Below, piece after piece: positions 27,879 to 43,019 of a stretch of DNA of 43,452 nt. The notes below the pieces were generated by a model. That model made no database searches, had not been told where the DNA came from, and saw only the letters and a list, made by a program, of their open reading frames with translations. The position numbers and the translations under genes were made by a program. This stretch comes from Myxococcus sp. GTDB taxonomy: Bacteria; Myxococcota; Myxococcia; Myxococcales; Myxococcaceae. Position 1 is the first letter of the stretch. The number at the start of each line of letters is the position of its first letter. The stretch is from the NCBI GenBank assembly GCA_014879945.1, contig JACSRE010000178.1, forward strand, positions 1-43,452. Direction: 5' to 3'.

Positions 27879-28754
27879 TCACGGTGACTGCTTCGCCGCG
27901 CGCATCATTCCCCGAATGAGCCGGCCCACGCCGACGCCGATGAAGCCGGTGGCCACCAGGTAGCGCCCTCCCCCCGAGCTCGAGGCCAACGCGTAGGAGC
28001 CCACCGAGATGGCGAGGCCCACCACCAACAGCACCGCGCCGATGCCGAGGTCTGCCGCGGGGCTGACGGGCTCGTGGCTCACGCGCGCAACCCCCACGGC
28101 CGGGGCGAGCCCCGTGGCGGTCTGCACGATGGCTGAGCGCGCCCCGATGATGAGCGCCAGGGTGCCGCCCATCGAGACGAGCCCCATCACACCCAGGAAG
28201 AGCGGGTACCAGTCGCCCACCGCGCCGTAGTCGAAGAGCCGGAGCGAGAGCGCGACCCCTGCCGCCAGGCGCAGCACGCCGACGCCGCCCGCGACGAGCG
28301 CCACCAGGAGCGCCCAGGGCCGGCTCGGCCCACACAGCCGCACCGCGAAGACGAGGAAGACGACGCGCTCCGCCAGCCCCACCACCATCGATGGGTAGGA
28401 GAGGAGCGACCAGAAGGTGAGGTCGTCCTTCAGGAACAACCGCAGCAGGGTGAAGGCGAGGTCGAAGAGCGCGCCGACGGTGATGAGCCCAACCAACGCC
28501 CAGGCGAGCCCAGGCCGGTCGCTCGCGGTGCCGATGAAGACCACCCCGACCGCGAACACCACCGCGAGCCCAAGCCAGCCCAGCTGCATCGCGGCGTCGA
28601 GCGACTCGAAGGCGCTCACCGGCAGCACCCGGCTCACCAGCACGTTGACGAGCCACAGCGCCGCGGCGCCGATGGCGTAGCCCAGCAGGAGGTTGGCGCC
28701 CCTTTGGGCCGCGGGCTGGTCGGTGATGGTCACCGCGCGATGACCCCACACCAC
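27879..28754 (-). CDS. polytopic membrane protein of unknown function
   Basis: A 291-residue protein with about eight hydrophobic segments and no recognised motif. The C-terminal part has a Gly/Ser-rich segment between the last two helices (ASSSGGGRYLVATGFIGVGVGRLIRGMMRA). It lies 22 bases downstream of the ferredoxin gene in the same direction, so it may be the last gene of the large kor-nuo operon. Start is uncertain: GTG 28754 or 28751, or the GTG at 28733 (VTITDQ). The 188 bases downstream hold only an inverted repeat without a U-tract. Confidence 0.6.
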   Translation of the reverse strand: MVWGHRAVTITDQPAAQRGANLLLGYAIGAAALWLVNVLVSRVLPVSAFESLDAAMQLGWLGLAVVFAVGVVFIGTASDRPGLAWALVGLITVGALFDLAFTLLRLFLKDDLTFWSLLSYPSMVVGLAERVVFLVFAVRLCGPSRPWALLVALVAGGVGVLRLAAGVALSLRLFDYGAVGDWYPLFLGVMGLVSMGGTLALIIGARSAIVQTATGLAPAVGVARVSHEPVSPAADLGIGAVLLVVGLAISVGSYALASSSGGGRYLVATGFIGVGVGRLIRGMMRAAKQSP

Positions 28755-28776: not shown

Positions 28777-29112
28777 CTACTTGAACGGCGCCGGGTCGAG
28801 CATCGCCCGCTTGCCCTGCTGGTCCTTGAAGGCCTCGGCCTCGGGCAGCGCGTCCTTCTTCTCCGAGATCTGCGGCCACTCGGTCGCGTACTTCGCGTTC
28901 AGCGCCGTGTACTCGGCCCACTGCGCCGGCAGCGAGTCTTCGGTGAAGATGGCCTTGGTCGGGCACACCGGCTCACACGCGCCGCAGTCGATGCACTCGG
29001 TGGGGTGAATGACGAGGAAGTTGGCGCCCTCGTAGAAGCAGTTGACCGGACAGACCTCGACACAGTCGGTGTACTTGCACTTGATGCAGGGCTCGGCGAC
29101 GACGTACGGCAT
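28777..29112 (-). CDS. fdxA: seven-iron-type ferredoxin (FdxA / Azotobacter FdI-like)
   Basis: A 111-residue ferredoxin. The Cys pattern fits Azotobacter ferredoxin I with an offset of one: C9, C17 and C50 for a [3Fe-4S] cluster, C21, C40, C43 and C46 for a [4Fe-4S] cluster, with C12 and C25 at the non-ligand positions. A C-terminal ~55-residue extension after the clusters is also usual for FdxA. ATG 29112 has AAGGAG six bases upstream; the frame upstream of it has no sense. It lies downstream of nuoN and the hemerythrin-like gene, and is a good candidate for carrying electrons from KorAB to the Nuo complex (inference). Confidence 0.93.
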
Positions 29113-29150: not shown

Positions 29151-29603
29151 TCACTCGGTGTCGGCGTCGACGGTGACGATGTCGTCGCGCAGCACCTTGG
29201 GGGAAAGGCAGGTCTTCTCTTCCTCAGCCATGTCCCGCAGCAGGTCGGCGCTGAAGGCCCGCACCTGGCGGACCCACCCTGCGGGATCCGAGATGGCGTC
29301 GAGCGCGGCGAGGGCGCTGACCACCGCGCGCTGCGCGGCGTGCTCCTCGTCCATCGACTGCACCCGCGCGGGCCCCCACGCGTCGATCGTCTGGAGCACC
29401 GGCCGCAGCAGCCGCTCTTCGTGTTCGACGTGCCGCGTGAAGGACTCGAGCAGCGCCTGCACCTGCGCATGGGCCTCCTTGAGCGCGGCCACGTCCCCTT
29501 GCGCCGCGCGATCGAGCAGCCCCTCGACCGCCCTGAGCGCGATGCGCAGCCCTTCATGTTCGACGAGGATGATGCGGCGAATCTTGCTGTTCTCGAGCGT
29601 CAT
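29151..29603 (-). CDS. hemerythrin-like (HHE) di-iron protein
   Basis: A ~150-residue four-helix protein. Candidate iron ligands are His16 (VEHEGLR), His58 and His61-Glu62 ([11 protein letters not shown]), and His88 (DEEHAAQ). In the last helix the usual ligand His appears replaced by Asp124 ([10 protein letters not shown]), followed by the EEE motif. Hemerythrin-like domains bind O2, NO or iron, and some sense oxygen or protect Fe-S enzymes. The ATG at 29603 has GGAGG five bases upstream; GTG 29606 is also possible. It follows nuoN by 10 bases and precedes the ferredoxin gene, inside the presumed operon. Confidence 0.85.
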
Positions 29604-29613
29604 CACGGCCTCC

Positions 29614-31050
29614 TCAGTGCTTCGGCATGAACGCGCTGGCCGCCTTCGTGGCCTCGTCCACCAACGGACGCGGCCACAGGCCCAGCCCCACCACCGCCAC
29701 CAGACACACGACGATCGAGACCGTCAGCGGGAACCCCGCCTTCACTGGCTGGCTCGAAGCGCCCTCGGCCATGAAGGTCGAGCGCGCGACGCTCAGGTAG
29801 TAGAAGAGCCCCAGCACGGCGACGACGACGCCCACCACCACCAGCCCCGACAGCCCTGCCCGCCACGCCGCCAGGAAGACGAACAGCTTCGCCCAGAAGC
29901 CCACCACGAACGGAATGCCGGCCAGCGACAACAGAAACACGAGCAGCGCCGCGCCCAACCACGGCGAGCGCCGCGAGAGGCCCGCGAGCTTCGAGAGCTC
30001 GTACCCGCCGCTCTGCCGCGCCGCGGCGTGCACCACCAGGAAGGCGCCCAGGTTGGTGAAGACGTAGGTCGCGATGAAGAAGAGGGCCATCGCCACGCCC
30101 TCGGCTGAGTTGGCGCGGACCGCGAGCAGCACGTAGCCGATCTGCGCGACGCCCGAGAACCCGAGCAGCCGGCGCACGTCGAGCTGCGGCAGCGCGAAGA
30201 CGTTGCCCACCACCATGCTGGCGACGGCGAGCACCGCCAGGGCCGGCATCCACACCGCGTGGTGCTGCGCCCAGCCCGAGAGCATCACGACCGAGTACGC
30301 CGCCAGCCCGCCCGCCTTCGGCGCCACCGACAGGAACGCCACGAAGGGGGTCGGCGCGCCCTGGTAGGTGTCGGGCACCCACATGTGGAAGGGCACCGCG
30401 CCCAGCTTGAAGCCGAGGCCTGCGATCACCATCAGCATGCCCGTCGAGTGCAGCAGCGAGAGCGAGGCCGGCAGCGCCGAGAGCGCGGTCGACCCCGTCT
30501 CGCCGATGACGAGGGCCAGGCCGAAGAGCGTGAAGGCGCTGCTGGCGACGCCGGTGACGAACAACTTGAGGCCGGCCTCGGGGCCCAGCTTCGGCTCGTC
30601 AGCGGGCCCGTCGGTCTTCGCCCACGCCGCGAGCGCGTAGAGCGGAACGCCCATCAGCTCGAACGACACCAGGAGCAGCACCCAGTCGCGCGCCCCCGGC
30701 AGCAGCATCATGCCCGTGAGGCTGAACAGCATCAGCGCGTAGTACTCGGCCTGCCGGTGGGGCGTGCGCTCCTCGAGCCAGTCGATGCTGCCCAGCACCG
30801 CGAGGATGCCGGCGGCCAGGAACAGGCGCTTGAAGAACAACGTCCACGCGCCGGCCTCGTAGACCCCGTGCGGCGCGACGCCGGTGCCATCGACGAAGAA
30901 GGTGGCGACCAACACCGAGCCCAGGAGCGCCGCGGTCAGCCACCCCACCACGCGCCCGGGCAGCCTCGCGAACGCGTCGAGCGCCAGCACCACGCACGCC
31001 GACGCCGCGACGGCGAGATCGAGCGCGAAGAGCTGCAGCAGGGCGCTCAT
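29614..31050 (-). CDS. nuoN: NuoN, complex I antiporter-like subunit
   Basis: A 478-residue membrane subunit with about fourteen helices. The key Glu lies in LLLVSFELMGVPLYALAAW, and the family motif around the conserved Lys is GAVPFHMWVPDTYQGAPTP. It forms a proton channel next to NuoK and NuoM. The reading frame extends to 32352 upstream but that part is antiparallel nonsense over nuoM; the ATG at 31050 overlaps the nuoM stop (ATGA). Confidence 0.96.
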   Translation of the reverse strand: MSALLQLFALDLAVAASACVVLALDAFARLPGRVVGWLTAALLGSVLVATFFVDGTGVAPHGVYEAGAWTLFFKRLFLAAGILAVLGSIDWLEERTPHRQAEYYALMLFSLTGMMLLPGARDWVLLLVSFELMGVPLYALAAWAKTDGPADEPKLGPEAGLKLFVTGVASSAFTLFGLALVIGETGSTALSALPASLSLLHSTGMLMVIAGLGFKLGAVPFHMWVPDTYQGAPTPFVAFLSVAPKAGGLAAYSVVMLSGWAQHHAVWMPALAVLAVASMVVGNVFALPQLDVRRLLGFSGVAQIGYVLLAVRANSAEGVAMALFFIATYVFTNLGAFLVVHAAARQSGGYELSKLAGLSRRSPWLGAALLVFLLSLAGIPFVVGFWAKLFVFLAAWRAGLSGLVVVGVVVAVLGLFYYLSVARSTFMAEGASSQPVKAGFPLTVSIVVCLVAVVGLGLWPRPLVDEATKAASAFMPKH

Positions 31051-32594
31051 GGCAGCACCTGCGCGACCGCGGCCAGGGGCAGCTTGCCGAGGTAGCCCTG
31101 GCTGGCGACGTCGATGAAGTCGAGCAACAGCCGGGGCCAGAAGCCGAAGACGACGAGGAGCGCGCCCAGCGCCAACGGCGCAGCCCACTCGGTACGGTGC
31201 ACGTCGGGCAGCGCGGCGAACGCTCCGGTGGGCGCGGGGCCCCAGAAGATCGTCTTGCAGGCCCGCAGCACGTAGACCGCGGTGACGAACGCGCCCACCA
31301 CGCCGGGCACCACCCACCACGGGCTGGCGCCCTGCGCCGCGCCGACGAACACCATGAACTCGGCGACGAAGCCGGCGGTGCCCGGGAGCCCCAGCGACGA
31401 GAGGCACGCCAGGGTGAAGAAGCCCGCCACCACCGGCATCGGGTGCGCGAAGCCGCCCATGAGCGCGATGGTGCGGGTGTGCGCCCGCTCGTAGACGAGG
31501 CCGACGAGGGCGAAGAACAGCCCGGTCATGATGCCGTGCGCCACCATCTGGTAGACGGCGCCGTTCCACCCGGCCGCGTTCATCGTCGCGATGCCCAGCA
31601 TCACCACGCCCATGTGGCTCACCGACGAGTAGGCGATGATGTACTTGAGGTCCTTCTGGCTGGCCGCGCAGAGGGCTCCGTAGAGCACGTTCACCACCGC
31701 GACCGCCCCGACGATGGGCGCCCACCAGGCCGCGGCGTCGGGCACCAGCACCATGCCGATGCGCAGCACGCCGAAGGCGCCCAGCTTCATCAACACCCCG
31801 GCGTGGAGCATCGACACCGCCGTCGGCGCCGAGGCGTGCCCGTCGGGCGACCAGGTGTGGAACGGGAAGACGCCCGCCAGCGTGCCGAAGCCGAGCCACA
31901 CCAGCGGGAACACCACGTGCTGCACCGCGAGCGGGAACTTCGTGGCCTCGAGCACCTGCAGGTCGAAGGTGCGCGCGCCCGAGTGCTCCCACAGCAGGAA
32001 CATCGCCACGAGGATGGCGGCGGAGCCCACCAGCAACATCAACGTCAGCTTCATCGCGGCGTACTCGCGGCTGCCGACCTCGAAGCGCTTCCACGCGAAG
32101 GTGAACGGGCCCGCCGCCGGCACCTGGTGGCTCGAGCCCCAGATGCCGATGAGCAGGTACATCGGCAGCACCGCGATCTCGTAGAAGAGGAAGAAGACGA
32201 ACAGGTCTTGCGAGACGAAGACGCCGAAGACGCCCGCGACCAGCACCAGCAACAAGAGGAAGAACTCCTTGTCGCGCTTGTTCACCGACCAGCTCGCCAG
32301 CACGCCGGTGACGACGATCACCCCGGTGAGGAGCAACAGCGCCACGCCCCACCCGTCCACCGCCAGCTTCAGGTGCACCCCCAGCGACGGCACCAGGGGC
32401 ACGCTGTCGAGCAGCTGCAACCCACCCTGCGCGCGGTCGTACACGAAGGCCACCCGAAGGCTGGCCAGCAGCCCGCCGGTCGCCCCTGCCAGCGAGACCA
32501 GCCGCAGCGCCGTGCGCGACGTCGAGGGGATCAGCAGCAGCACCACCGCGGCCAGCGCCGGCGCGGCCATGGTGAGGGCGAGCAGGTGACTCAT
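31047..32594 (-). CDS. nuoM: NuoM, complex I antiporter-like subunit
   Basis: A 515-residue proton-channel subunit with about fourteen helices. The conserved Glu is in FFLFYEIAVLPMYLLIG, the Lys/His-bearing segment includes GVFPFHTWSPDGHASAPTAVS, and the C-terminal half carries GLPGTAGFVAEFMVF. Length is typical. Start and stop overlap nuoL and nuoN by four bases each. Confidence 0.97.
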   Translation of the reverse strand: MSHLLALTMAAPALAAVVLLLIPSTSRTALRLVSLAGATGGLLASLRVAFVYDRAQGGLQLLDSVPLVPSLGVHLKLAVDGWGVALLLLTGVIVVTGVLASWSVNKRDKEFFLLLLVLVAGVFGVFVSQDLFVFFLFYEIAVLPMYLLIGIWGSSHQVPAAGPFTFAWKRFEVGSREYAAMKLTLMLLVGSAAILVAMFLLWEHSGARTFDLQVLEATKFPLAVQHVVFPLVWLGFGTLAGVFPFHTWSPDGHASAPTAVSMLHAGVLMKLGAFGVLRIGMVLVPDAAAWWAPIVGAVAVVNVLYGALCAASQKDLKYIIAYSSVSHMGVVMLGIATMNAAGWNGAVYQMVAHGIMTGLFFALVGLVYERAHTRTIALMGGFAHPMPVVAGFFTLACLSSLGLPGTAGFVAEFMVFVGAAQGASPWWVVPGVVGAFVTAVYVLRACKTIFWGPAPTGAFAALPDVHRTEWAAPLALGALLVVFGFWPRLLLDFIDVASQGYLGKLPLAAVAQVLP

Positions 32595-34390
32595 CGCAGC
32601 ACTCCGATCAGCACCAGCGCCAGCACGCCCACCACGACCATCAGGGCGTAGTCGCGCACCAGGCCGGTCTGGAGCCGCCGCGCCGAGGTGCCGCCCTCGA
32701 GCGCGGCCCAGCCGGCGAAGTTCATCAGCCCGTCGATGAGGTAGCGATCAACCCAGCCCGCGAGCGCGCTCACGCCCAGGAGCCCCAGCCGATAGCCCCC
32801 CGCCCACGCGCGATCGACGAGCGAGAACGTGTCGAGGCGCTCCAGGACGGCGGTGAGGGGCGCCTTGCCACCACGGCCGAACACCACCACCGCGGCGCCG
32901 AGCCCGGCCAGCGACATCACCGTCGCGAGCACGGGCGTGAGGCCGAGGTGCAGGTGGTACTCCGCGCTCGTCTGCGTGGCGAGCCACCCACCGAGCACGC
33001 CTGAGGCGAGCGACGGAACCGCCAGCACCACCAGGGGCCCCGTCATGGCGAGGTTGCCCTCGTGGGCGTGCTCCGCGCGCGCCCCCGGCTCGCCCCAGAA
33101 GACCTTGATGACGACGCGGCCCATGTAGAACGCGGTGAGGAACGCGGCGAACAGCAGCATCGCCCACGGCACCCACGAGGCCTTCCCCTCGAGCGACGAG
33201 AGCACCAGGTCCTTGCTGAAGAAGCCCGCGAACCCCGGCACGCCCGCCAGCGACAGCGCGCCGATGACGAAGGCGCCGGTCGTCAGCGGCAGCTTCTTGC
33301 GCAGGCCCCCCATGTCGTCGATGGCGTTGGAGTGGACCGCGTGAATGACACTCCCGGCGGCGAGGAAGAGGAGCGCCTTGAAGAAGGCGTGGGTGCCGAG
33401 GTGGAAGAAGCCCGCGAAGGCCTGCCCTGCCCCGAGCGCCGCCACCATGTAGCCGAGCTGCGAGCAGGTCGAGAACGCGAGCACCTTCTTCAGGTCGCGC
33501 TGCACCAGCGCCAGGCCGGCCGCGAAGACGGCGGTGACGGAGCCCACCCACAGCATCACCTCGCGGGTGCCGGGGGCGAGCGCGAAGAGCGGGTCGGCGC
33601 GCACCACCAGGAAGACGCCGGCCGCCACCATCGTCGCCGCGTGCAGGAGCGCCGACACCGGCGTCGGGCCCTCCATCGCGTCGGGCAGCCAGACGTGGAG
33701 CGGGAACTGCGCCGACTTGCCCACCACCGCGACGAACAGCAGCCCCGTCACCCAGGTCGCCACCGCCGCGCTCGGCGCCGACGTCCACTCGAAGCTCCCG
33801 GTCGAGACGAAGAGCACCAGCAGCCCGAAGAGGAAGCCCATGTCGGCGAGCTTCGTCATCCAGAACGCCTTCACCGCCGCCTGCGCCGCTGACGGCCTGG
33901 CGAAGTAGAAGCCGATCAGCAGGTAGCTGCTCAGGCCGACGAGCTCCCAGCCGAAGAAGAGCTGAAGCAGGTTCGGCGAGACGACCACCACGTTCATGCT
34001 GAAGAGGAAGAGCGCGTGCAGGGCGAAGTAGCGGCCGAACGCCTTCGGCGGCTCGTCGTGCATGTACGCCACCGAGAAGAGCTGCACGCAGAGCGCGACC
34101 AGACAGACGATGAGCAGCATCACCAGCGAGACGCCGTCGATCAGCACGCCCACCTCGGCCAGCGGGCGGCCGGCCTGCTCGATCCACGAGGTGGTGGCGC
34201 GCGCGTCGGGGGCGCCGCCGAGCCGGGCGACCAGCAGCGCGATCGCCGCGCCCAGCGACGTCACCGTCGCCGCCAACGTGAGCCAGGCCGCCGGCGCGCC
34301 GCGGTGGCGCAGCGGGCTGACGACCAGGAGCAGCACCGCCGCCACGGCGGGCGCGAGGGTCGCGACCAGCGCCAGCGTCACCGGGCTCAT
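32591..34390 (-). CDS. nuoL: NuoL, distal complex I proton-channel subunit
   Basis: A 599-residue subunit. Conserved features are GWELVGLSSYLLIGFYF (key Glu), FPLHVWLPDAMEGPTPVSALLHAATMVAAG, and FFSKDLVL; a C-terminal region long enough for the lateral helix HL and its anchor follows. The start ATG 34390 overlaps the nuoK stop by four bases; the longer frame upstream is spurious. Together with NuoM and NuoN it would give three antiporter-like pump modules. Confidence 0.97.
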   Translation of the reverse strand: MSPVTLALVATLAPAVAAVLLLVVSPLRHRGAPAAWLTLAATVTSLGAAIALLVARLGGAPDARATTSWIEQAGRPLAEVGVLIDGVSLVMLLIVCLVALCVQLFSVAYMHDEPPKAFGRYFALHALFLFSMNVVVVSPNLLQLFFGWELVGLSSYLLIGFYFARPSAAQAAVKAFWMTKLADMGFLFGLLVLFVSTGSFEWTSAPSAAVATWVTGLLFVAVVGKSAQFPLHVWLPDAMEGPTPVSALLHAATMVAAGVFLVVRADPLFALAPGTREVMLWVGSVTAVFAAGLALVQRDLKKVLAFSTCSQLGYMVAALGAGQAFAGFFHLGTHAFFKALLFLAAGSVIHAVHSNAIDDMGGLRKKLPLTTGAFVIGALSLAGVPGFAGFFSKDLVLSSLEGKASWVPWAMLLFAAFLTAFYMGRVVIKVFWGEPGARAEHAHEGNLAMTGPLVVLAVPSLASGVLGGWLATQTSAEYHLHLGLTPVLATVMSLAGLGAAVVVFGRGGKAPLTAVLERLDTFSLVDRAWAGGYRLGLLGVSALAGWVDRYLIDGLMNFAGWAALEGGTSARRLQTGLVRDYALMVVVGVLALVLIGVLR

Positions 34391-34686
34391 CGCCTGGCCT
34401 CGCTGGCCAGCGCGAGCGAGGTGTCGCCGTGGCGCCGGTACAGGAGCATCACCAGGGCCAGCCCGATGGCCACCTCGGCCACCGTGAGCGCGAGGGCGAA
34501 CAGCACGAAGACCTGCGCTGACGGCCCGCCCCGGAAGTGGGCGAACGAGGCGAAGACGATGTTGGCCGAGTTCGCCATCAGCTCGACCGAGAGCAGCATG
34601 GCGACGGCCTGCCTCCGGGTCACCACGCCGTAGACGCCGATGGCCATCACCGCCGAGGCGAGCAGGATGCAACTGGTGAGCGTCAC
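34387..34686 (-). CDS. nuoK: NuoK, small membrane subunit of complex I
   Basis: A 99-residue three-helix protein of typical size. The family pattern QAVAMLLSVELMANSANIVF carries the functional Glu in helix 2, and a second Glu is in LTVAEVAIGLALVMLLYR. It starts with GTG 34686, overlapping the nuoJ stop (GTGA). Confidence 0.97.
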   Translation of the reverse strand: MTLTSCILLASAVMAIGVYGVVTRRQAVAMLLSVELMANSANIVFASFAHFRGGPSAQVFVLFALALTVAEVAIGLALVMLLYRRHGDTSLALASEARR

Positions 34687-35231
34687 GGGTTCACCTCGGG
34701 GGTCGCCGGCAGCGCCGGGGTGTCAGCGGCAGCGCCAGGCACCGCGTCGCGGCGCCGCACCAGCACCACCGCGCCGACGATGGCGGCCAGCAACAACAGC
34801 GACAGGGCCTCGAAGGCGATCAGGTACTCGTCGAGCAGCGCCCGCGCGAGCTCGGCGGTGGTGGCCACCTTCGCCGGCGAGGCGATGACGGGCGCGCTCG
34901 TCCACGTCACCACCGCGAGGATGACGAAGAGCGCGGTGGCGAAGATGAAGCCGCGGTCCTTCCCGTCGCTCTCGGCCGCCGCGTCGAGCCCCTCGTGACG
35001 GCGCGTCACCATGACGCCGAAGATCATCAGCGTCAGCAGGCCACCGACGTAGGTGAGCACCTGCACGCCGGCGAGGAACGGCGCGTTGAGCTGGGCGTAC
35101 AACACGGCCGTCGCCAGCAGCGTCACGCCCAGCCAGAGCGCCGCGTGAATGAGGTGGCGCGCCCGCACCACGAAGAGCGCCGAGACGATCATCACGAGCG
35201 CCACCGCCGTGAAGCCGGGGTCGAAGGTCAT
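34683..35231 (-). CDS. nuoJ: NuoJ, membrane subunit of complex I
   Basis: A 182-residue five-helix protein. The conserved third helix with a Tyr in VQVLTYVGGLLTLMIFGVMV includes the pi-bulge segment typical of NuoJ. The C-terminal ~25 residues are Ala/Pro-rich and vary in the family. ATG 35231 overlaps the nuoI stop by four bases. Confidence 0.96.
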   Translation of the reverse strand: MTFDPGFTAVALVMIVSALFVVRARHLIHAALWLGVTLLATAVLYAQLNAPFLAGVQVLTYVGGLLTLMIFGVMVTRRHEGLDAAAESDGKDRGFIFATALFVILAVVTWTSAPVIASPAKVATTAELARALLDEYLIAFEALSLLLLAAIVGAVVLVRRRDAVPGAAADTPALPATPEVNP

Positions 35232-36109
35232 GGGGTGCCTCCTTCAGGCTTCGTGGGTGAGGCGCCCGCTGGCGCTGCAGCACCGGCCTCGTCTCCGGGT
35301 TGAGGCGCGGCGACCTTTGGCGACCCGGCCGGCGCCGCGGCGAGGGGCGCCGCCTCGGGTGGCTCCACAGGCGTGCGCGTCACCGGCTCGTTCAGCAAAG
35401 CTGCAGCCCCTGAGTTGGCGGCATGAGACGCCATGGCCTCGGGAGCCGGGCCAGGTCCGCTCGTCGATGTCGCAGCGCCCGCCGAGGTGGAGCCGACCGA
35501 CGCCACGCCCAAAGCCTCGCTGGGCTTCGCGCTCGTTGGCTCAATCGCCGGCGCAGCGCCCACCGAGGGGGAGGCGACCGACGTCGCGGCAACGGGAGCA
35601 CCAGCCGGCGCCGGCTTCGGCGGCTTCGGGGGCGTCTGCATCTCCATCAGCTTCGTCCCATCGCCCCAGGCTCGCGTCTTCGCCTTCTCGTTCTCGTAGA
35701 GCTTCGCCATCGTCAGCACGAGCGCCTCGCGCCCATAGGCCGGCGGCTCCTGCTCGCGCGTCATCACGATGGCGTCGGTGGGGCAGACCTGCACGCACAG
35801 CTCACAGAAGATGCAGGCCGACAGATCGAGGGTGAAGTCGTCGGCGTAGCTGCGCTTCTTGCCGCTGATCGGCGAGTCACGCTTCGCGGGCCCCTTGATG
35901 GCGATGACCTTCGACGGGCAGATGCGCTCACACTGCAGGCACCCGATGCAGGCCTCGTCGCCGTCGGCCTCGTGCAGCAGCGCGAAGCTGGCGCGGTAGC
36001 GCTCGGCGCGCTCCCTGACCTCGTGCGGGAACTGCACGGTGGTGGGCGGGCGGGCGAAGCTCCTGGCCGCGGTGGCGATGCTGCGAAAGGCATCAAGGAA
36101 GTGACGCAT
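35228..36109 (-). CDS. nuoI: NuoI, 2x[4Fe-4S] subunit of complex I, with long C-terminal tail
   Basis: A 293-residue subunit, far longer than the usual 160-220. Residues 1-155 are the normal protein, with cluster motifs C54-x2-C57-x2-C60-x3-C64 and C99-x2-C102-x2-C105-x3-C109 (clusters N6a and N6b). Residues ~158-293 are a low-complexity Ala/Pro/Ser/Thr tail without Cys. It passes electrons to cluster N2 in the NuoB part. The stop overlaps nuoJ, and nine bases separate its start from the nuoH stop. The tail is in frame and codes without interruption, so it is probably real, but its role is unknown. Confidence 0.95.
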   Translation of the reverse strand: MRHFLDAFRSIATAARSFARPPTTVQFPHEVRERAERYRASFALLHEADGDEACIGCLQCERICPSKVIAIKGPAKRDSPISGKKRSYADDFTLDLSACIFCELCVQVCPTDAIVMTREQEPPAYGREALVLTMAKLYENEKAKTRAWGDGTKLMEMQTPPKPPKPAPAGAPVAATSVASPSVGAAPAIEPTSAKPSEALGVASVGSTSAGAATSTSGPGPAPEAMASHAANSGAAALLNEPVTRTPVEPPEAAPLAAAPAGSPKVAAPQPGDEAGAAAPAGASPTKPEGGTP

Positions 36110-36118
36110 GGTGCCCTC

Positions 36119-37087
36119 TCACCCGACGAAGACGACCCAGAGCGCCGCGCCCAGCACGAGCGCGACCCCGGTCGGCACCAGCCAGCGCCAGCACAGCGCC
36201 ATCAGCTGATCGGAGCGGAAGCGCAGCAGCGTCCACCGCACCCAGTACACGAACGCGAACAGGCCCAACGTCTTGGCCGCCATCCAGTGGAGGCCGGGCG
36301 CGAACGGCCCGTCCCACCCGCCGAGGAAGAGCGCCGCCGCCACCGCCGAGGCGATGAGCGTGTGCAGGTACTCGGCCATGTAGAACAGCGCGAACTTCAT
36401 GCCGGTGTACTCGGTGGTGATGCCCGCCACGAGCTCGCTCTCGGCCTCGGGGATGTCGAAGGGAATGCGGTTCGACTCGGCCAGCATGGCCAGCATGAAG
36501 AGCACGAAGGCGGGCACGCCCAGGAAGAAGGGCCAGGCGATCAGCCAGTGGTGCTGGGCCTGGTACTCGACGATCGCGCTCACCTTCATCGTGCCGGTGA
36601 GGATCACCGGCACCAGCGCCGCCAGCACCAGCGGCACCTCGTACGAGACCGACTGCGCGATGGCCCGCATGGCGCCCAGCAGCGCGAACTTGTTGTTGCT
36701 CCCCCACCCCGCGATGAAGACGGGCAGCACGCCGAGCGCGCCGATGGCCAGCAGGTAGAGCACCCCCGCGTCGAGATCGGCCCCGATGATGCTGGCCGAG
36801 AACGGCACCACCGCCGCGACCGCCAGCGCTCCGATGGCGCCCAGCGGCGGCGCGAGGTTGAAGAGCACCCGATCGGCCTCGTCGGGCACGATGTCTTCCT
36901 TCTGCAGCAGCTTCAGCACGTCGGCCACCGGCTGCAGCAACCCGAAGGGCCCGACCAGCGTGGGCCCCAGCCGGCTCTGCATGCGCGCCGCCATCTTGCG
37001 CTCACCCCACAGCGCCAGGGCCACCAGCGTCATGATGACGGTGATGATGCCGCCGCCGTAGAGCGCTCCGTGCGTGAAGTCGGTCAT
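36119..37087 (-). CDS. nuoH: NuoH, quinone-site membrane subunit of complex I
   Basis: A 322-residue subunit with about eight helices. The matrix-type loop RLGPTLVGPFGLLQPVADVLKLL and the later Glu-rich ESNRIPFDIPEAESELVAG are both diagnostic. It forms the quinone chamber with the NuoB and NuoD parts and links redox change to the pump modules. Its ATG overlaps the nuoD stop (ATGA). Confidence 0.97.
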   Translation of the reverse strand: MTDFTHGALYGGGIITVIMTLVALALWGERKMAARMQSRLGPTLVGPFGLLQPVADVLKLLQKEDIVPDEADRVLFNLAPPLGAIGALAVAAVVPFSASIIGADLDAGVLYLLAIGALGVLPVFIAGWGSNNKFALLGAMRAIAQSVSYEVPLVLAALVPVILTGTMKVSAIVEYQAQHHWLIAWPFFLGVPAFVLFMLAMLAESNRIPFDIPEAESELVAGITTEYTGMKFALFYMAEYLHTLIASAVAAALFLGGWDGPFAPGLHWMAAKTLGLFAFVYWVRWTLLRFRSDQLMALCWRWLVPTGVALVLGAALWVVFVG

Positions 37088-38271
37088 CGGTCGACCTCGC
37101 CCATGATGGGGTCGAGCGACCCGAGAATGGCGATGGCGTCGCTCACCGTCTGGCCCGGGAGCAGGTACGGCAGCGCCGAGAGCGCGTGCAGGCTGGGCGG
37201 CCGCAGCTTGAGGCGGTACGGGTGCTGGGAGCCGTCGGCGATCACCCAGGTCCCCAGCTCACCGCGCGGCGTCTCGATGCCCACGTACTGCTGCCCCGCG
37301 GGGAGCTTCGTCTGCACCGGGAGCTTGGTCGGCTTGCCGGAGTTGATGGGGCCCTCGGGCATGCCGTCGAGCAGCGCGCGGCACAGGCGCAGGCTCTCGA
37401 CCAGCTCGGCGACCCGCACCTCGGTGCGCGCGTAGCAGTCGCCGCCGCGCGCAGTCGCGACGTTCACCTTCACCTCGTCGTAGGCGTGAAAGGGCGCGTC
37501 GCGGCGCAGGTCGTGATCGACGCCCGAGGCGCGGAGGTTGGGGCCGGTCACCCCCAGCTCCAGCGCCAGCTCGCCGTCGAGCACGCCGACGCCGCGGGTG
37601 CGCTGCTCGAAGAGGTGGTTGTGGAGCGTCATCGCCAGGTACTCGGGCAGCCGGGCCTCGATGGTGTCGAGCGCCGCCTTCACCTTCGCGCCCCACCCGG
37701 CCGGCAGGTCGTGCCGGTTCCCGCCGATGGAGTGCGTGTTGTAGTGAAAGCGCGCGCCGGTGACGGCCTCGAAGAGATCGAGCACCAGCTCGCGCTCACG
37801 GAAGCAGTAGATGAAGACGGTCGAGCCGCCGCCCAGCGCGCCGCCGAGATCGAGCGAGAAGGTGCCCAGCCACAGCAGGTGCGAGGCCACGCGCTGCAGC
37901 TCGGCGAAGAGGGCCCGCATCCACCGCGCGCGCCGGGGCACCTCGAGCTTCAGCATCGCCTCGAAGGCCATGACCAGCGCCTGCTCGTTGGTCATCGGCG
38001 CGACGTAGTCGTTCTTGTCGACGATCGGCGGCAGCTGCACGTACGCCAGCTTCTCGCAGAGCTTCTCGACCGCCCGGTGCAGGTACCCGCAGTGCGGCAC
38101 CGCCTTGACGATGCGCTCGCCGTCGAGGAACAGATCCATGCGGAAGACGCCGTGCGTGGACGGGTGCTGCGGCCCGAAGTGCAACAGCATCAACTCGGCC
38201 TCGGGGTCGAGGGCGTCGATGGACAGGTACGGGTTGACGCGTGGGCGAACGGTGGCGGCGAGGGGCGTCAT
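37084..38271 (-). CDS. nuoD: NuoD, 49-kDa quinone-binding subunit of complex I
   Basis: A 395-residue subunit. The HPSTHG motif is at 36-41. Taking the mammalian quinone-ligand pair His59/Tyr108 as reference, His40 and Tyr89 (KNDYVAP) occupy the same spacing of 49. Other family motifs present are GNRHDL and the C-terminal DPIMGEVDR. It is a separate gene here, not fused to NuoC as in E. coli. Seven bases separate its start from the nuoBC stop. Confidence 0.97.
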   Translation of the reverse strand: MTPLAATVRPRVNPYLSIDALDPEAELMLLHFGPQHPSTHGVFRMDLFLDGERIVKAVPHCGYLHRAVEKLCEKLAYVQLPPIVDKNDYVAPMTNEQALVMAFEAMLKLEVPRRARWMRALFAELQRVASHLLWLGTFSLDLGGALGGGSTVFIYCFRERELVLDLFEAVTGARFHYNTHSIGGNRHDLPAGWGAKVKAALDTIEARLPEYLAMTLHNHLFEQRTRGVGVLDGELALELGVTGPNLRASGVDHDLRRDAPFHAYDEVKVNVATARGGDCYARTEVRVAELVESLRLCRALLDGMPEGPINSGKPTKLPVQTKLPAGQQYVGIETPRGELGTWVIADGSQHPYRLKLRPPSLHALSALPYLLPGQTVSDAIAILGSLDPIMGEVDR

Positions 38272-38278
38272 GATCTCG

Positions 38279-39466
38279 TCACCTCCAGGGCGGAGCGGGT
38301 GCGTCAGCGGGGAAGTCGCGCCGCAGGGGGAAGGTGGTGGCGTTCTCGGTCTGCATCAGCCGCCGCAGATCGGGGTGCCCTGCGAAGCGCACGCCCAGCA
38401 GGTCGAACTGCTCGCGCTCCTGCCAATCGGCCCCGGCGAAGACGCCGCTCAGGGTCAGCACCGGCTCGTCGGGCGCCAGCCGCACCGACCAGGCCGCCAC
38501 CTTCGAGCCCGGCCCGATGGTGCGCACCGCGGTGGTGAGCTCGAAGTGCTCGGGCTCGGCGGGGTCGGCGCCCTTGCGGCCCTTGCCGGCCAGCCAGTGC
38601 GTCGCCACCATGGTGACGAGCTGTCGGTAGCCCAGCGCCTTGAGCCGCCGGGCGAGCTCGAGGTGCTGCGCGAGGGGGATCACCGGCGGCCCATCGGCCG
38701 GCAGCTCGGTGACGCCCAGCTCGGCGAGCAGCGCCGCGAAGTCGCCGCCGACGAGCGGCGCCACCTGGGGCGCGGGGCCGGCCGCCACCTCGAGCGGGGC
38801 GCTCTCTTCATCGGCGGTCGGGTTGTCCGAGGCGCGCTCCTGCGCGAGCGTCTGCTCGGGCGAGCGGGTGGGCTCGGTGAGCCTGGGCACCGAGGGCTGG
38901 GTCACCTTCATCAGCCCCGGGTTCACCTCGGGCACCACCACCTCGCCCCGCCGCTGCCGCTGGATCTTCTCCTGCAGCCGCAGCATGCCGTGCATCAGCG
39001 CTTCGGGGTTCGGCGGGCAGCCGGGCACATAGACGTCCACCGGCATGAAGGTGTCGACGCCGGGAACCACGCTGTAGAGGTTCCGGTAGAAGTCTCCCGA
39101 GATGGCGCACGAGCCCATCGCGACGCACCACTTGGGCTCGGGCATCTGCTCCCACAGCTTGAGCACGCGCGGCGCCATCTTGGTGGTGATGGTGCCGGCC
39201 ACCACCATCACGTCGGCCTGCCGGGGCGTGGCGCGCACGATGACGCCCATGCGATCGATGTCGACCCGGCTCGCCGCCGTGGCCATGAACTCGATGCCGC
39301 AGCAGCTGGTCGCCATGGGGAAGATCCACATGGCGTTGGTGAGGCCCCAGGTGAGCAGATCGTCGAGCGCGGCGGTGCCGACGGTGAGGCCGGGCGTCTC
39401 GAGCAGCACCTGGTAGAGGGGGTGGCGGAAGTTGGCCCCGGTGTCGACGGTGCGCTGCGGGCTCAT
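38279..39466 (-). CDS. nuoBC: NuoB-NuoC fusion subunit of complex I
   Basis: A 395-residue fusion. Residues 1-~175 are NuoB (PSST), with all four N2 cluster ligands: Cys55, Cys56, Cys120 (GSC) and Cys150 (VPGCPPNPEA). Residues ~176-262 are a Pro/Glu/Ala-rich linker. Residues ~263-395 are NuoC (30 kDa), ending in the signature EREQFDLLGVRFAGHPDLRRL. Both domains look intact. ATG 39466 overlaps the nuoA stop by four bases and is preferred to the GTG two codons upstream. N2 reduces quinone. The usual layouts are separate nuoB and nuoC or a nuoCD fusion. Confidence 0.95.
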   Translation of the reverse strand: MSPQRTVDTGANFRHPLYQVLLETPGLTVGTAALDDLLTWGLTNAMWIFPMATSCCGIEFMATAASRVDIDRMGVIVRATPRQADVMVVAGTITTKMAPRVLKLWEQMPEPKWCVAMGSCAISGDFYRNLYSVVPGVDTFMPVDVYVPGCPPNPEALMHGMLRLQEKIQRQRRGEVVVPEVNPGLMKVTQPSVPRLTEPTRSPEQTLAQERASDNPTADEESAPLEVAAGPAPQVAPLVGGDFAALLAELGVTELPADGPPVIPLAQHLELARRLKALGYRQLVTMVATHWLAGKGRKGADPAEPEHFELTTAVRTIGPGSKVAAWSVRLAPDEPVLTLSGVFAGADWQEREQFDLLGVRFAGHPDLRRLMQTENATTFPLRRDFPADAPAPPWR

Positions 39467-39822
39467 TGCCACTGGAGCGCTCCTTTGCGGGTCGCCCAGG
39501 CCCAGCCGAGCATCAGCACCACCACGAACGAGGTGACGGCGACGAGGCCGCGCGCGCCGGCCTCACGCACGATGGTCGCCCACGGCAACAGGAAGGCCGT
39601 CTCGATGTCGAAGAGCACGAAGAACAGCGCCACCACGTAGTAGCGCGCGTGAAACCGCACCCAGGCCACGCCCGAGGGCACCTCGCCGCACTCGTAGGTC
39701 TGTCCCTTGAGGGGCTCCCGCTTCGTCGAGACGACCCGCAAGAGCCTGGCGCCCACCAACATCGAGCCCGCCACCGCGACGGCGACCAGGAGAAACGCGA
39801 GCAGGGCGAGGCCAGAGGACAT
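39463..39822 (-). CDS. nuoA: NuoA, membrane subunit of complex I
   Basis: A 119-residue three-helix subunit. The hallmark YECGEVPSG loop (with the Cys near the quinone site) and FHARYYVVALFFVLFDIETAFLLPWA are present. It is the first nuo gene and starts 19 bases after the stop of the ferritin-like gene. Confidence 0.97.
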   Translation of the reverse strand: MSSGLALLAFLLVAVAVAGSMLVGARLLRVVSTKREPLKGQTYECGEVPSGVAWVRFHARYYVVALFFVLFDIETAFLLPWATIVREAGARGLVAVTSFVVVLMLGWAWATRKGALQWQ

Positions 39823-39841
39823 GGTGCCTGGGTGCCTTTCG

Positions 39842-40378
39842 TCACTGCGGTGCGGGGCCGTCGCTGACGTCGACGCGGGCGAACCGGTCGTCGGGCGGCA
39901 GCTTCGCGAGCTCGGCCTTCACCAACTGTTGGTGCTCGACCTCCTCGTCGCGGAGCTCCTCGAAGAGCCTGCGCACCTCGGGCTTCTGCACGTGGCTGAG
40001 CACCGAGACGAAGAAGCGGTGGGCCTTCTCTTCACTGCGCAGGGCGGCCTCGAGCGCCTGCCGGGTCGTCATGTCGGCGCGCGCCTCGTCGTAGTCGGGC
40101 GCCTCGACGTCGAAGATCATCTCGCGCCGCACGGCGACGGGTTGGTCGTTGAAGTGCTTCTTGCGCTCCTCGAGCAGCTGCTGGCGGTGCAGCTCTTCGA
40201 TGCGCACCATCTTCGCGAAGAAGGCGGCGGCCCCAGGGGTTCGGTGCAGCACCAGCTGCGCCGAGAGCTCCTCGTAGCGATCGCGCGCCTCTTCTTCGAT
40301 CAGCACGGCCAGATCGAACGCGTCCTTCAGGGTCAGCGCGGCGAAGTCGATTCCCGGTGTCTGTGTCTGGCTGGTCAC
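39842..40378 (-). CDS. ferritin-like/rubrerythrin-type di-iron protein
   Basis: A 178-residue four-helix-bundle protein. Two ExxH motifs, E61-x-x-H64 (RIEELH) and E146-x-x-H149 (DEEVEH), with further Glu at 28-30 and 117-118, make a plausible di-iron site. There is no rubredoxin domain. Similar proteins act in peroxide reduction or iron handling. I use GTG 40378 with GAGGG six bases upstream; GTG 40390 would overlap the korB stop (GTGA) and is equally possible. It lies between korB and nuoA, in the same direction. Confidence 0.85.
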   Translation of the reverse strand: MTSQTQTPGIDFAALTLKDAFDLAVLIEEEARDRYEELSAQLVLHRTPGAAAFFAKMVRIEELHRQQLLEERKKHFNDQPVAVRREMIFDVEAPDYDEARADMTTRQALEAALRSEEKAHRFFVSVLSHVQKPEVRRLFEELRDEEVEHQQLVKAELAKLPPDDRFARVDVSDGPAPQ

Positions 40379-40386
40379 GGCGGCCC

Positions 40387-41259
40387 TCACTTCTGCAGGT
40401 AGGCTTCGAGGATCTGGTGTCGCGAGCGCGCCTTCCTGGCCTGCTCGGCCTGGCGCAGCTTCACCAGGGCCTCGTACGTCGGCGGCGGGTTGGGGTTGCG
40501 GTAGAAGACGCCGGTGTAGAGCTCGGTGCCGTACGAGCGCGCGAGATCGAGCGCGGCGAGCTGGTTCGAGGCGTCGTGCCCCAGGCTCGCCAGCGTCTTC
40601 ATGGTCGCCTTGTGCGCCTTGAGCTGCTGGTTGTCTTCGCCGAACGTCACGCACGGCGACTGGATGTTGACGAACGAGAAGCCGGGGTAGCGAATGGCCT
40701 CTTCGATCAACGCGGTCATGCCGGGCATGTCGGCGGGCGTGGCCTGGGCGACGAACCCCGCGCCGTAGGCGAGCATGTAGAGCAGCGGGTTGATCGGGTC
40801 TTCGAGGCTGCCCAGCGGCGAGGTGACGGTCTCGAGGCCGCGGGGCGAGGTGGGCGAGAGCTGCCCCTTGGTGAGCCCGTACACCTGGTTGTCCATCACC
40901 AGGTACGTCAGGTCCATGTTGCGGCGCACCGCGTGCGGCACGTGCCCGCCGCCGATCGAGAAGCCGTCGCCGTCACCGCCAGCCACCACCACCAGCAGCT
41001 CGGGGTTGGCCAGCTTCACGCCCTGCGCGATGGGGAGCGAGCGCCCGTGCACGCTGTTGAAGCCGTACGCGGTGGTGTACCCGGGAATGCGTGAGGAGCA
41101 GCCGATGCCCGAGATGAAGGCCACCTCGTGCGGCGGCCGGCCGATCGACGAGAGCGCGCGGTAGAGGCCCTGGAGCACCCCGAAGTCGCCGCACCCGGGG
41201 CACCAGATGGGCTTGAGGTCGCTCTTGTAGTCCTTCGCCTGAAGCACCGGCGCGTTCAT
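40387..41259 (-). CDS. korB: 2-oxoacid:ferredoxin oxidoreductase beta subunit
   Basis: A 290-residue thiamine-diphosphate subunit. The [4Fe-4S] ligands are Cys20 and Cys23 (WCPGCG), Cys54 (GIGCSS) and Cys203 (SPCVTF). The TPP/Mg motif runs from GDGD at 95-98 to N124-QVYG. With the fused alpha-gamma subunit it oxidatively decarboxylates a 2-oxoacid with CoA and reduces ferredoxin. The sequence and length match KorB of aerobic bacteria (2-oxoglutarate). No delta (ferredoxin-like) subunit is encoded nearby. Its start overlaps the korA stop by four bases. Confidence 0.94.
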   Translation of the reverse strand: MNAPVLQAKDYKSDLKPIWCPGCGDFGVLQGLYRALSSIGRPPHEVAFISGIGCSSRIPGYTTAYGFNSVHGRSLPIAQGVKLANPELLVVVAGGDGDGFSIGGGHVPHAVRRNMDLTYLVMDNQVYGLTKGQLSPTSPRGLETVTSPLGSLEDPINPLLYMLAYGAGFVAQATPADMPGMTALIEEAIRYPGFSFVNIQSPCVTFGEDNQQLKAHKATMKTLASLGHDASNQLAALDLARSYGTELYTGVFYRNPNPPPTYEALVKLRQAEQARKARSRHQILEAYLQK

Positions 41260-43019
41260 GACGGCATGCCCTTCTGCTCGAGCAGGCGCGCGACGAGCTC
41301 CGCGGGTTGAAAGGGGTTGGCGCCGCTGCGACAGAAGCTGCGAAGGCCCCTGGGCACCTCGGTGAACATGCGCAGCATCCGGTAGAGCTGGCCCTGGTGC
41401 GACAGCTCGACGAGCAGGCCGTGCCGGAGCGACTCGAAGAAGCTGGCGTAGACCTGCTCGGCGATCGGGTACAGCAGGTAGGGCACGAGCAGCTTGACGT
41501 CGTGGCCCTGGGCGGTCGCCAGCGCGTGGGCCTCGCGCGCGACGCCGGCGGTGCTGCCCCAGGCGATGAGGCCCAGCGGGGCCTTCGGGTCGCCCAACAG
41601 CTCGAAGAACTCGGCGCGGCGCTTGAGCGGCTCGAGCTTCTTGAAGCGCTTCTCATTCATCTTCGCGTGCATCACCCCGCCCGAGGTGGGGTCGCCCTTC
41701 TCGTTGTGCTCGATGCCGGCCGCCAGGTAGGTGCCGCCCTGAAGGCCCGGGTGGCTGATGGGGCTGACGCCGCTGTCGGTGAAGGCGAAGCGCGCGTACG
41801 GCTTCTCGGCCAGCTCGGCCGCGGTGGGCACCCGGCGCTCGACGATCTCGAGCTTCGAGGTGTCGATGAGATCGACCGCCTCTTTGCGCTGGGCGATCTC
41901 CTGGTCGGACAAGATGATCACCGGCGTCTGGTACTGCTCGGCGATGTTGAAGGCGTCGACGGTGACGCGGAAGGTGTCTTCGACGTCGGTGGGCGCGAGC
42001 ACCGGGCGCAGCACGTCGCCGTGCCCAGAGAAGGCCGCCTGAAAGAGGTCGCCCTGCTCCGGCTTGGTGGGCAGGCCGGTCGAGGGGCCGCCGCGCTGCA
42101 CGTTGAGCACCACCAGGGGCAGCTCCGCGATGGTGGCCAGCCCGAGGATCTCGGTCTTGAGGTCCATGCCCGGGCCGCTGGTGGCCGTCATCGACTTACG
42201 CCCCGCGAACGAGGCGCCGACGCTCGCGCCGATGCCCGCGATCTCGTCTTCACACTGGAGCACCGCGCCGCCGTACTTCCAGATCTCGCGGCTCAGCGTC
42301 TGCATCACCTCGGTGGACGGGGTGATGGGGTAGCCGCCGAAGAACTTCACGCCCGCGAAGAGGGCTCCGGCCGCGCACATGTCGTTGCCGTCGCAGAGCA
42401 TCTTCGAGCCCGGCGGCCCGGTCGGCCGCGCGATGACTGGTGGAGCGGGGAGCGGGTGCGCACTCGCGTACTCGATGCCTGCCGCCAGCGCCTTCTCGTT
42501 GGCCTCGAGTAGCCCTTCGGCCTTGCCGCCGAACTTCTTGGTGAGGCCCCGGGTGATGGCCGCGGCGGGAATTCCGAACCAACCTGAGAGCAGCCCCAGC
42601 ACCACCGACGTCTTGGCCTTGTCTGACCCGGCCGACTTCTTGGTGAGCTCGGTGATGGCGACGGGGATGAGCCGGTTCGGCACCACGCCGCGCGCCTTGA
42701 GCGTCTCGGGCGGCGGGCCTGCCTTCTCTTCGTAGATGAGGACGGTGGTGACCGAGAGCGGCAGCTCGGCGCCGAACTTGAAGAAGTCTTCCCAGTTCAG
42801 GGCCACCAGCACGTCGAGGGCGCCGCCGGGGTTGAGGACCTTCTTCGTCGAGAGGCGAACCCGGCACGAGGACTCGCCGCCGCGAATCTGCGAACCGAAG
42901 CTCTTGGTCATCAGCGCGTGGTAGCCCTCGGAGGAGGCTGCTGCGAGGAGCGACTCACCGGCGCTCACCACTCCGTCACCGCCCGCGCCCGCCATTCCCA
43001 GAATCAAGTCGTCGACCAT
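41256..43019 (-). CDS. korA: 2-oxoacid:ferredoxin oxidoreductase, fused gamma-alpha subunit
   Basis: A 587-residue fusion. Residues 1-~190 are the gamma domain (GMAGAGGDGVVSAGE at 8-22; SQIRGGESSCRVRLS). Residues ~205-587 are the alpha part with YPITPSTE at 230-237 and RGGPSTGLPTKPEQGDL at 309-325, a pattern typical of 2-oxoglutarate-specific enzymes. The two-gene korAB form is the one reported as relatively oxygen-tolerant in mycobacteria. ATG 43019 has no clear ribosome site upstream. It is the first gene of the presumed operon, and the promoter should lie to its right. Confidence 0.94.
   Translation of the reverse strand: MVDDLILGMAGAGGDGVVSAGESLLAAASSEGYHALMTKSFGSQIRGGESSCRVRLSTKKVLNPGGALDVLVALNWEDFFKFGAELPLSVTTVLIYEEKAGPPPETLKARGVVPNRLIPVAITELTKKSAGSDKAKTSVVLGLLSGWFGIPAAAITRGLTKKFGGKAEGLLEANEKALAAGIEYASAHPLPAPPVIARPTGPPGSKMLCDGNDMCAAGALFAGVKFFGGYPITPSTEVMQTLSREIWKYGGAVLQCEDEIAGIGASVGASFAGRKSMTATSGPGMDLKTEILGLATIAELPLVVLNVQRGGPSTGLPTKPEQGDLFQAAFSGHGDVLRPVLAPTDVEDTFRVTVDAFNIAEQYQTPVIILSDQEIAQRKEAVDLIDTSKLEIVERRVPTAAELAEKPYARFAFTDSGVSPISHPGLQGGTYLAAGIEHNEKGDPTSGGVMHAKMNEKRFKKLEPLKRRAEFFELLGDPKAPLGLIAWGSTAGVAREAHALATAQGHDVKLLVPYLLYPIAEQVYASFFESLRHGLLVELSHQGQLYRMLRMFTEVPRGLRSFCRSGANPFQPAELVARLLEQKGMPS

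Follow-up and report, generated by a model that had tools for sequence, protein, structure and literature searches.

A general question is how 2-oxoacid:ferredoxin oxidoreductases can work in organisms that live in air. The window analysed here, a stretch of 43,452 nucleotides from Myxococcus sp. (contig JACSRE010000178.1 of assembly GCA_014879945.1), bears on this question by offering two candidates for guard or maintenance proteins whose genes are linked, one rubrerythrin-like (FER) and one hemerythrin-like (HHE). An earlier reading of the sequence alone had placed the first gene between korB and nuoA and the second between nuoN and fdxA, and both genes were indeed found at these positions on the minus strand. 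The order on this strand is korA-korB-FER-nuoA-BC-D-H-I-J-K-L-M-N-HHE-fdxA, with the following features:

korA, 41256..43019, minus strand: fused gamma-alpha subunit of a 2-oxoacid:ferredoxin oxidoreductase (TIGR03710 552.7 bits, above the cutoff of 482.75; Pfam POR and POR_N)
korB, 40387..41259, minus strand: TPP-binding beta subunit (TIGR02177 266.6 bits, above the cutoff of 261.9; TPP_enzyme_C and PFO_beta_C)
FER, 39842..40378, minus strand: standalone rubrerythrin/COG1633-type ferritin-like protein, GTG start, 178 aa (Pfam Rubrerythrin 3e-12)
nuoA, 39463..39822, minus strand: placed by position and conservation in relatives
nuoB-nuoC, 38279..39472, minus strand: single fused ORF (Pfam Oxidored_q6 and Complex1_30kDa in 397 aa)
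nuoD, 37084..38271, minus strand: Complex1_49kDa, 1.7e-81
nuoH, 36119..37087, minus strand: placed by related-locus search and tblastn
nuoI, 35228..36109, minus strand: long Pro/Ala-rich C-terminal tail (TIGR01971 covers residues 10-134 of 293)
nuoJ, 34683..35231, minus strand: placed by position and conservation in relatives
nuoK, 34387..34686, minus strand: placed by position and conservation in relatives
nuoL, 32591..34390, minus strand: placed by position and conservation in relatives
nuoM, 31047..32594, minus strand: placed by position and conservation in relatives
nuoN, 29614..31053, minus strand: placed by position and conservation in relatives
HHE, 29151..29606 (start at 29606 or 29603), minus strand: hemerythrin-like protein, 150-151 aa (Pfam Hemerythrin 1.1e-12)
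fdxA, 28777..29112, minus strand: ferredoxin (NF045490 FdxA_Protbact 148.2 bits, above the cutoff of 135)

The genes are separated by 8 bp (korB/FER), 19 bp (FER/nuoA), about 10 bp (7-10; nuoN/HHE) and 38 bp (HHE/fdxA). A scan, weak at the G+C of this DNA, detected neither a sigma-70-like promoter nor, in the gaps around FER and HHE, a terminator-like site. It is plausible that korA to fdxA form one transcription unit and are transcribed together. The pN/pS ratios of FER (0.19-0.33) and HHE (0.35-0.46) are low and indicate purifying selection on both genes. The nuoB/nuoC fusion carries a long linker, and several relatives among L023-L030 have two separate matches in its place. Approximately 150 residues of NuoI (293 aa) past the 4Fe-4S part form the Pro/Ala-rich tail, the length of which differs among relatives. 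Downstream of fdxA, positions 27879-28754 encode a 291-aa protein that is probably in the membrane and has no Pfam match; it is kept near HHE/fdxA in L014, L016, L018 and L110 (56-63% identity).

The surrounding genes encode what would be a ferredoxin-based respiratory module. Both Kor subunits score above their family cutoffs, which identifies a two-subunit KorAB of the OAFO superfamily, and the substrate, judged by family, is probably 2-oxoglutarate. The cluster encodes NuoA-D and NuoH-N and lacks NuoEFG, as in an 11-subunit complex I. NuoF matches in this genome are confined to contigs C191 and C302, and contig C119 encodes the E1 of a conventional 2-oxoglutarate dehydrogenase, so the cluster appears to be an additional, ferredoxin-type electron route. 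In the proposed route, KorAB would oxidise a 2-oxoacid, FdxA, the presumed carrier, would take the electrons to complex I, and the complex I lacking NuoEFG would oxidise FdxA. In bacteria that are probably aerobic, an 11-subunit complex I would thus have a plausible source of electrons, with FER and HHE as soluble accessory proteins of the module. Clusters without fdxA have a different small ferredoxin-like gene upstream of nuoA (L020:6628-6840, L021:3556-3891). In several relatives a pyruvate:ferredoxin oxidoreductase of approximately 1175 aa is encoded beside kor or HHE (L011:133-3651, L122:1754-5269, L137:4788-6116, L118:3411-6950, L138:3357-6911), which suggests a second ferredoxin donor to such Nuo complexes.

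FER is a rubrerythrin/ferritin-like protein in its predicted four-helix bundle, its ligand pattern and its Pfam match over cutoff. In the AF2 model (pLDDT 82.9) the helices span residues 17-44, 48-76, 105-127 and 133-158. The best PDB match is 2oh3 from Magnetospirillum, a member of COG1633 (Z 16.8 across 144 residues), and a profile of 33 FER relatives retrieves the same structure (E 2.9e-21). Six residues are putative di-iron ligands: E28, E61, H64, E116, E146 and H149. The first five are invariant in 33 FER sequences and H149 is conserved in at least 90%. The resulting spacing (E, ExxH, E, ExxH) is the established pattern of ferritin-like di-iron sites, and metal binding by FER is likely. 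An alignment of relatives also shows a conserved C-terminal tail. FER is not a classical rubrerythrin, as its 178 residues include no Cys, its Pfam matches are to Rubrerythrin/Ferritin only and the C-terminal rubredoxin domain is lacking. We also considered the iron exporter MbfA as an identity for FER and rejected it; the match to NF045676 (53.8 bits, cutoff 450) covers only positions 3-146 of 318, and it is the N-terminal domain of the MbfA model that is weakly matched, the second domain being missing.

HHE is predicted by AF2, with confidence (pLDDT 91.3), to form a four-helix bundle with the hemerythrin fold. The closest structure is DcrH-Hr (3waq; Z 13.0, rmsd 2.2, 119 residues aligned), and although such a Z can be reached by chance among helical bundles, the Pfam Hemerythrin match agrees with it. 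Five of the seven hemerythrin ligands are retained (H16, H58, E62, H88 and E128), and these are invariant across 21 HHE relatives. The remaining two, His at positions 92 and 124 in hemerythrin, are replaced by Arg92 and Asp124 in the protein of the window and in 14 other HHE sequences, and by Leu and Asp in L107. The full set of five His is present in five relatives (L019, L020, L027, L028 and L121); a search of solved structures with the single sequence of one of these, from L028, matched no hemerythrin. The HHE of the window thus lacks the five His and two carboxylates of O2-binding hemerythrins, and with Arg and Asp at positions 92 and 124 canonical O2 binding is not supported. Because Asp is able to bind metal, the missing His at 124 does not imply that metal binding is lost. 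The claim that two di-iron proteins flank the nuo genes is therefore well supported for FER, whose ligand set is conserved, but not for HHE, which without two of the hemerythrin ligands is better described as hemerythrin-like with an altered site than as an established di-iron protein. The full ligand set of FER speaks against an absence of metal from both proteins.

Seven further hemerythrin-domain matches are found in the same genome (contigs C443, C403, C206, C201, C116, C420 and C324), of which four could be compared at these positions (L002, L007 and L008 were left out). All four have His124, and position 92 is Arg, Ala or His. Since Arg92 co-occurs with His124 in these paralogues, Asp124 is the more telling change, and we do not press a strict linkage of the two replacements. 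The HHE tree needs approximately two changes, so the covariation of Arg92 and Asp124 amounts to few events. The clade with the altered site probably serves a related function (chemistry of peroxide, NO or metals) instead of binding O2 reversibly.

In a rival reading, FER and HHE would not remove O2 but supply or recover iron, assembling or repairing the [4Fe-4S] clusters of KorAB, FdxA and NuoB/I as proposed for YtfE/RIC. Profile comparison places HHE nearest, among solved structures, to the repair protein YtfE (E 1e-8), FER has a ferritin-like fold and the weak MbfA N-terminal match, and the operon is rich in Fe-S proteins. However, HHE scores 19.1 bits against a cutoff of 204.7 for TIGR03652 and was rejected as a RIC/YtfE repair protein. 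In addition, recovery after damage is unchanged in a herA mutant of C. jejuni, so that the role of this hemerythrin is prevention rather than repair (PMC4257069). We regard iron supply or repair as unlikely, but worth keeping in view.

To determine if the arrangement is conserved, we surveyed 195 Myxococcota genomes. A close korB (E below 1e-110) is present in 17, and in 14 of these FER lies directly downstream of korB on the same strand (G000, which is the genome of the window, G162, G160, G102, G103, G149, G110, G141, G105, G084, G116, G155, G157 and G096). In two more (G030 and G027) HHE adjoins the close korB, and neither FER nor nuo is nearby. The last, G192, has both korB and a FER homolog, on different contigs. 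In the close relatives L011, L014, L016, L018, L110, L113, L115 and L136, HHE comes after nuoN; in L013, L027, L118 and L138 it is also in the vicinity but arranged differently. The pair might have been absent beside nuo in all relatives; instead, the arrangement recurs and is no chance feature of this one genome. Because the korB-FER genomes are mostly from one family, these counts are not independent, and loci in which the genes have been rearranged carry more weight.

In L019 and L020, korA-korB-FER-HHE lie together, facing the end of nuo. The korA-korB-FER genes are divergent from nuo in L021, and in L135 nuo does not follow them. Nuo clusters of the same type without a close kor (L023, L024, L026, L028, L120 and L122) have no FER. 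FER thus stays with kor where kor is displaced and is missing from these nuo clusters without a close kor, which suggests a tie to KorAB and not to nuo. HHE follows both OFOR genes and nuo: it accompanies nuo without kor in L028, is encoded divergently from the three-subunit OFOR of L121 and lies between a pyruvate:ferredoxin oxidoreductase (1.1 kb away) and nuoN in L118 and L138. It is hardly probable that FER and HHE are passengers present by ancestry with no functional tie. The cases do come mostly from one family, but the linkage outlasts several rearrangements, FER has stayed beside korB although its sequence changes faster, and both genes are under purifying selection. From these gene neighborhoods, the association of both proteins with the OFOR/complex I module is conserved and probably functional.

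Of 18 Anaeromyxobacteraceae loci with FER homologs, two are beside any OFOR (L096 and L101, tail-to-tail with another OFOR); the 16 that lie away from OFORs indicate that FER homologs are not exclusive to these enzymes, and the neighbors of Anaeromyxobacter FER gave no functional lead. A profile search of other NuoH loci outside Myxococcota (Omnitrophota, Verrucomicrobia and others) found no FER or HHE beside homologous nuo genes, with two exceptions: a weak, distant FER match in L030 (labeled Deltaproteobacteria) and an HHE after nuoN in L022 (labeled Planctomycetota). In G014, a 29-aa stretch just upstream of FER (L127:5229-5315) is 76% identical to KorA and is perhaps a relic of lost kor genes.

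The adjacency to korB raises the possibility that FER belongs to KorAB as a subunit with a structural, assembly or regulatory task, functionally replacing a delta-type subunit, and that HHE is another factor of this kind. In 14 of the 17 genomes FER comes immediately after korB, its C-terminal tail is conserved, and no korD gene is found in the cluster. However, G030 and G027 have close korAB genes without FER, the KorAB of M. tuberculosis is a two-subunit enzyme (PMC2773412), and conserved di-iron ligands would not be needed for such a role. We therefore consider an additional subunit improbable.

A regulatory role is also conceivable, in which HHE, and perhaps FER, would sense oxygen or redox state and regulate the module. 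Hemerythrin domains are known as sensors of O2 or redox state (PMC9388753), and L107, L108 and L126 have a CBS-domain gene close to HHE. However, FER and HHE are single-domain proteins with no output domain and lie within the presumed operon, and we find sensing very unlikely. The small CBS-domain protein itself recurs beside korA, nuoA or HHE (L027:3290-3748, L028:6463-6969, L107:459-866, L108:8405-8767 and L126:6051-6431; checked by Pfam in L107 and L126) and is a possible regulator of the module.

The reading that we prefer, to which we assign a probability of roughly one half, is that the two accessory proteins guard KorAB and related enzymes from O2 or peroxide damage, or maintain them, as judged from genetic linkage, predicted fold and precedent. 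FER would be the KorAB-specific partner, most likely removing peroxide or O2 near KorAB or keeping iron safe for its [4Fe-4S] cluster. HHE would also be a partner, in its case of OFOR enzymes and of this complex I, and those of its relatives that have the canonical site and the same genomic role could bind O2 like C. jejuni HerA. This reading draws on the adjacency of FER and korB, the movement of FER with kor, the position of HHE beside several OFORs and the conserved ligands of FER. It also has a precedent: in C. jejuni, mutation of herA lowers the activity of Por and Oor after exposure to 21% oxygen, and HerB is also protective (PMC4257069). KOR enzymes are mostly inactivated by O2, which supports a guard for KorAB, but the two-subunit KorAB of M. 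tuberculosis is stable in air, which weakens the need for one (PMC2773412). Other observations against protection are that FER lacks both a rubredoxin domain and an evident reductase, that most FER homologs of Anaeromyxobacteraceae are away from kor and nuo, and that the HHE of the window lacks two ligands. A more ambitious version, that the two proteins form a dedicated guard genetically coupled to KorAB and a ferredoxin-fed complex I, so that aerobic myxobacteria can use an oxygen-sensitive route to respire 2-oxoacids, with Arg/Asp HHE contributing a new metal chemistry, is offered tentatively and is doubtful as a whole. The guard idea is directly testable, because the linked pair is accompanied by natural variants missing FER or HHE (G030, G027 and G157) and because the canonical and the altered metal site both occur within one hemerythrin family whose genomic role is the same.

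The closest functional parallel is in C. jejuni, where the hemerythrin-family proteins HerA and HerB serve 2-oxoacid:acceptor oxidoreductases that feed a complex I not using NADH (PMC4257069, PMC6682613); Por and Oor feed Nuo there, likely using flavodoxin or ferredoxin (PMC6682613). The statement in the sequence-only reading that no Kor-Nuo system with such partners had been described was thus too broad in function, although the genetic coupling appears to be new. The C. jejuni proteins are typical di-iron hemerythrins encoded at separate loci (Cj0241 and Cj1224), whereas here the HHE gene lies with kor/nuo, the site of its product is altered and a rubrerythrin-like protein is also present. 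In a strict anaerobe whose Nuo also lacks the NADH module, ferredoxin from a 2-oxoacid oxidoreductase is the proposed donor; the available part of that description mentions no kor, ferritin-like or hemerythrin genes as clustered with nuo. M. tuberculosis, an aerobe, likewise has a two-subunit KOR with a fused gamma-alpha and a beta subunit, but its operon includes Rv2452c and the molybdopterin-type gene Rv2453c and no ferritin-like, hemerythrin or nuo genes (PMC2773412). FER resembles rubrerythrin/COG1633 proteins such as 2oh3 in predicted fold and di-iron pattern and differs from rubrerythrin in lacking the rubredoxin domain and in its conserved linkage to kor. HHE resembles YtfE/RIC and the HLP of Mycobacterium kansasii, which has NO peroxidase chemistry, in combining a hemerythrin-like fold with a ligand set that is not that of hemerythrin (PMC8913304). 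It differs from RIC in scoring far below the family cutoff, and the mycobacterial ligand set includes a Tyr described as unique there (PMC8913304). Each protein family, the idea of a Kor-ferredoxin-Nuo route and the functional precedent for protection by hemerythrins are already known. A search of the open-licence literature found no paper on this gene cluster, and relative to that literature the coupling of rubrerythrin-like and hemerythrin-like genes to korAB-nuo-fdxA appears to be new, as does the hemerythrin site with Arg and Asp found in that position.
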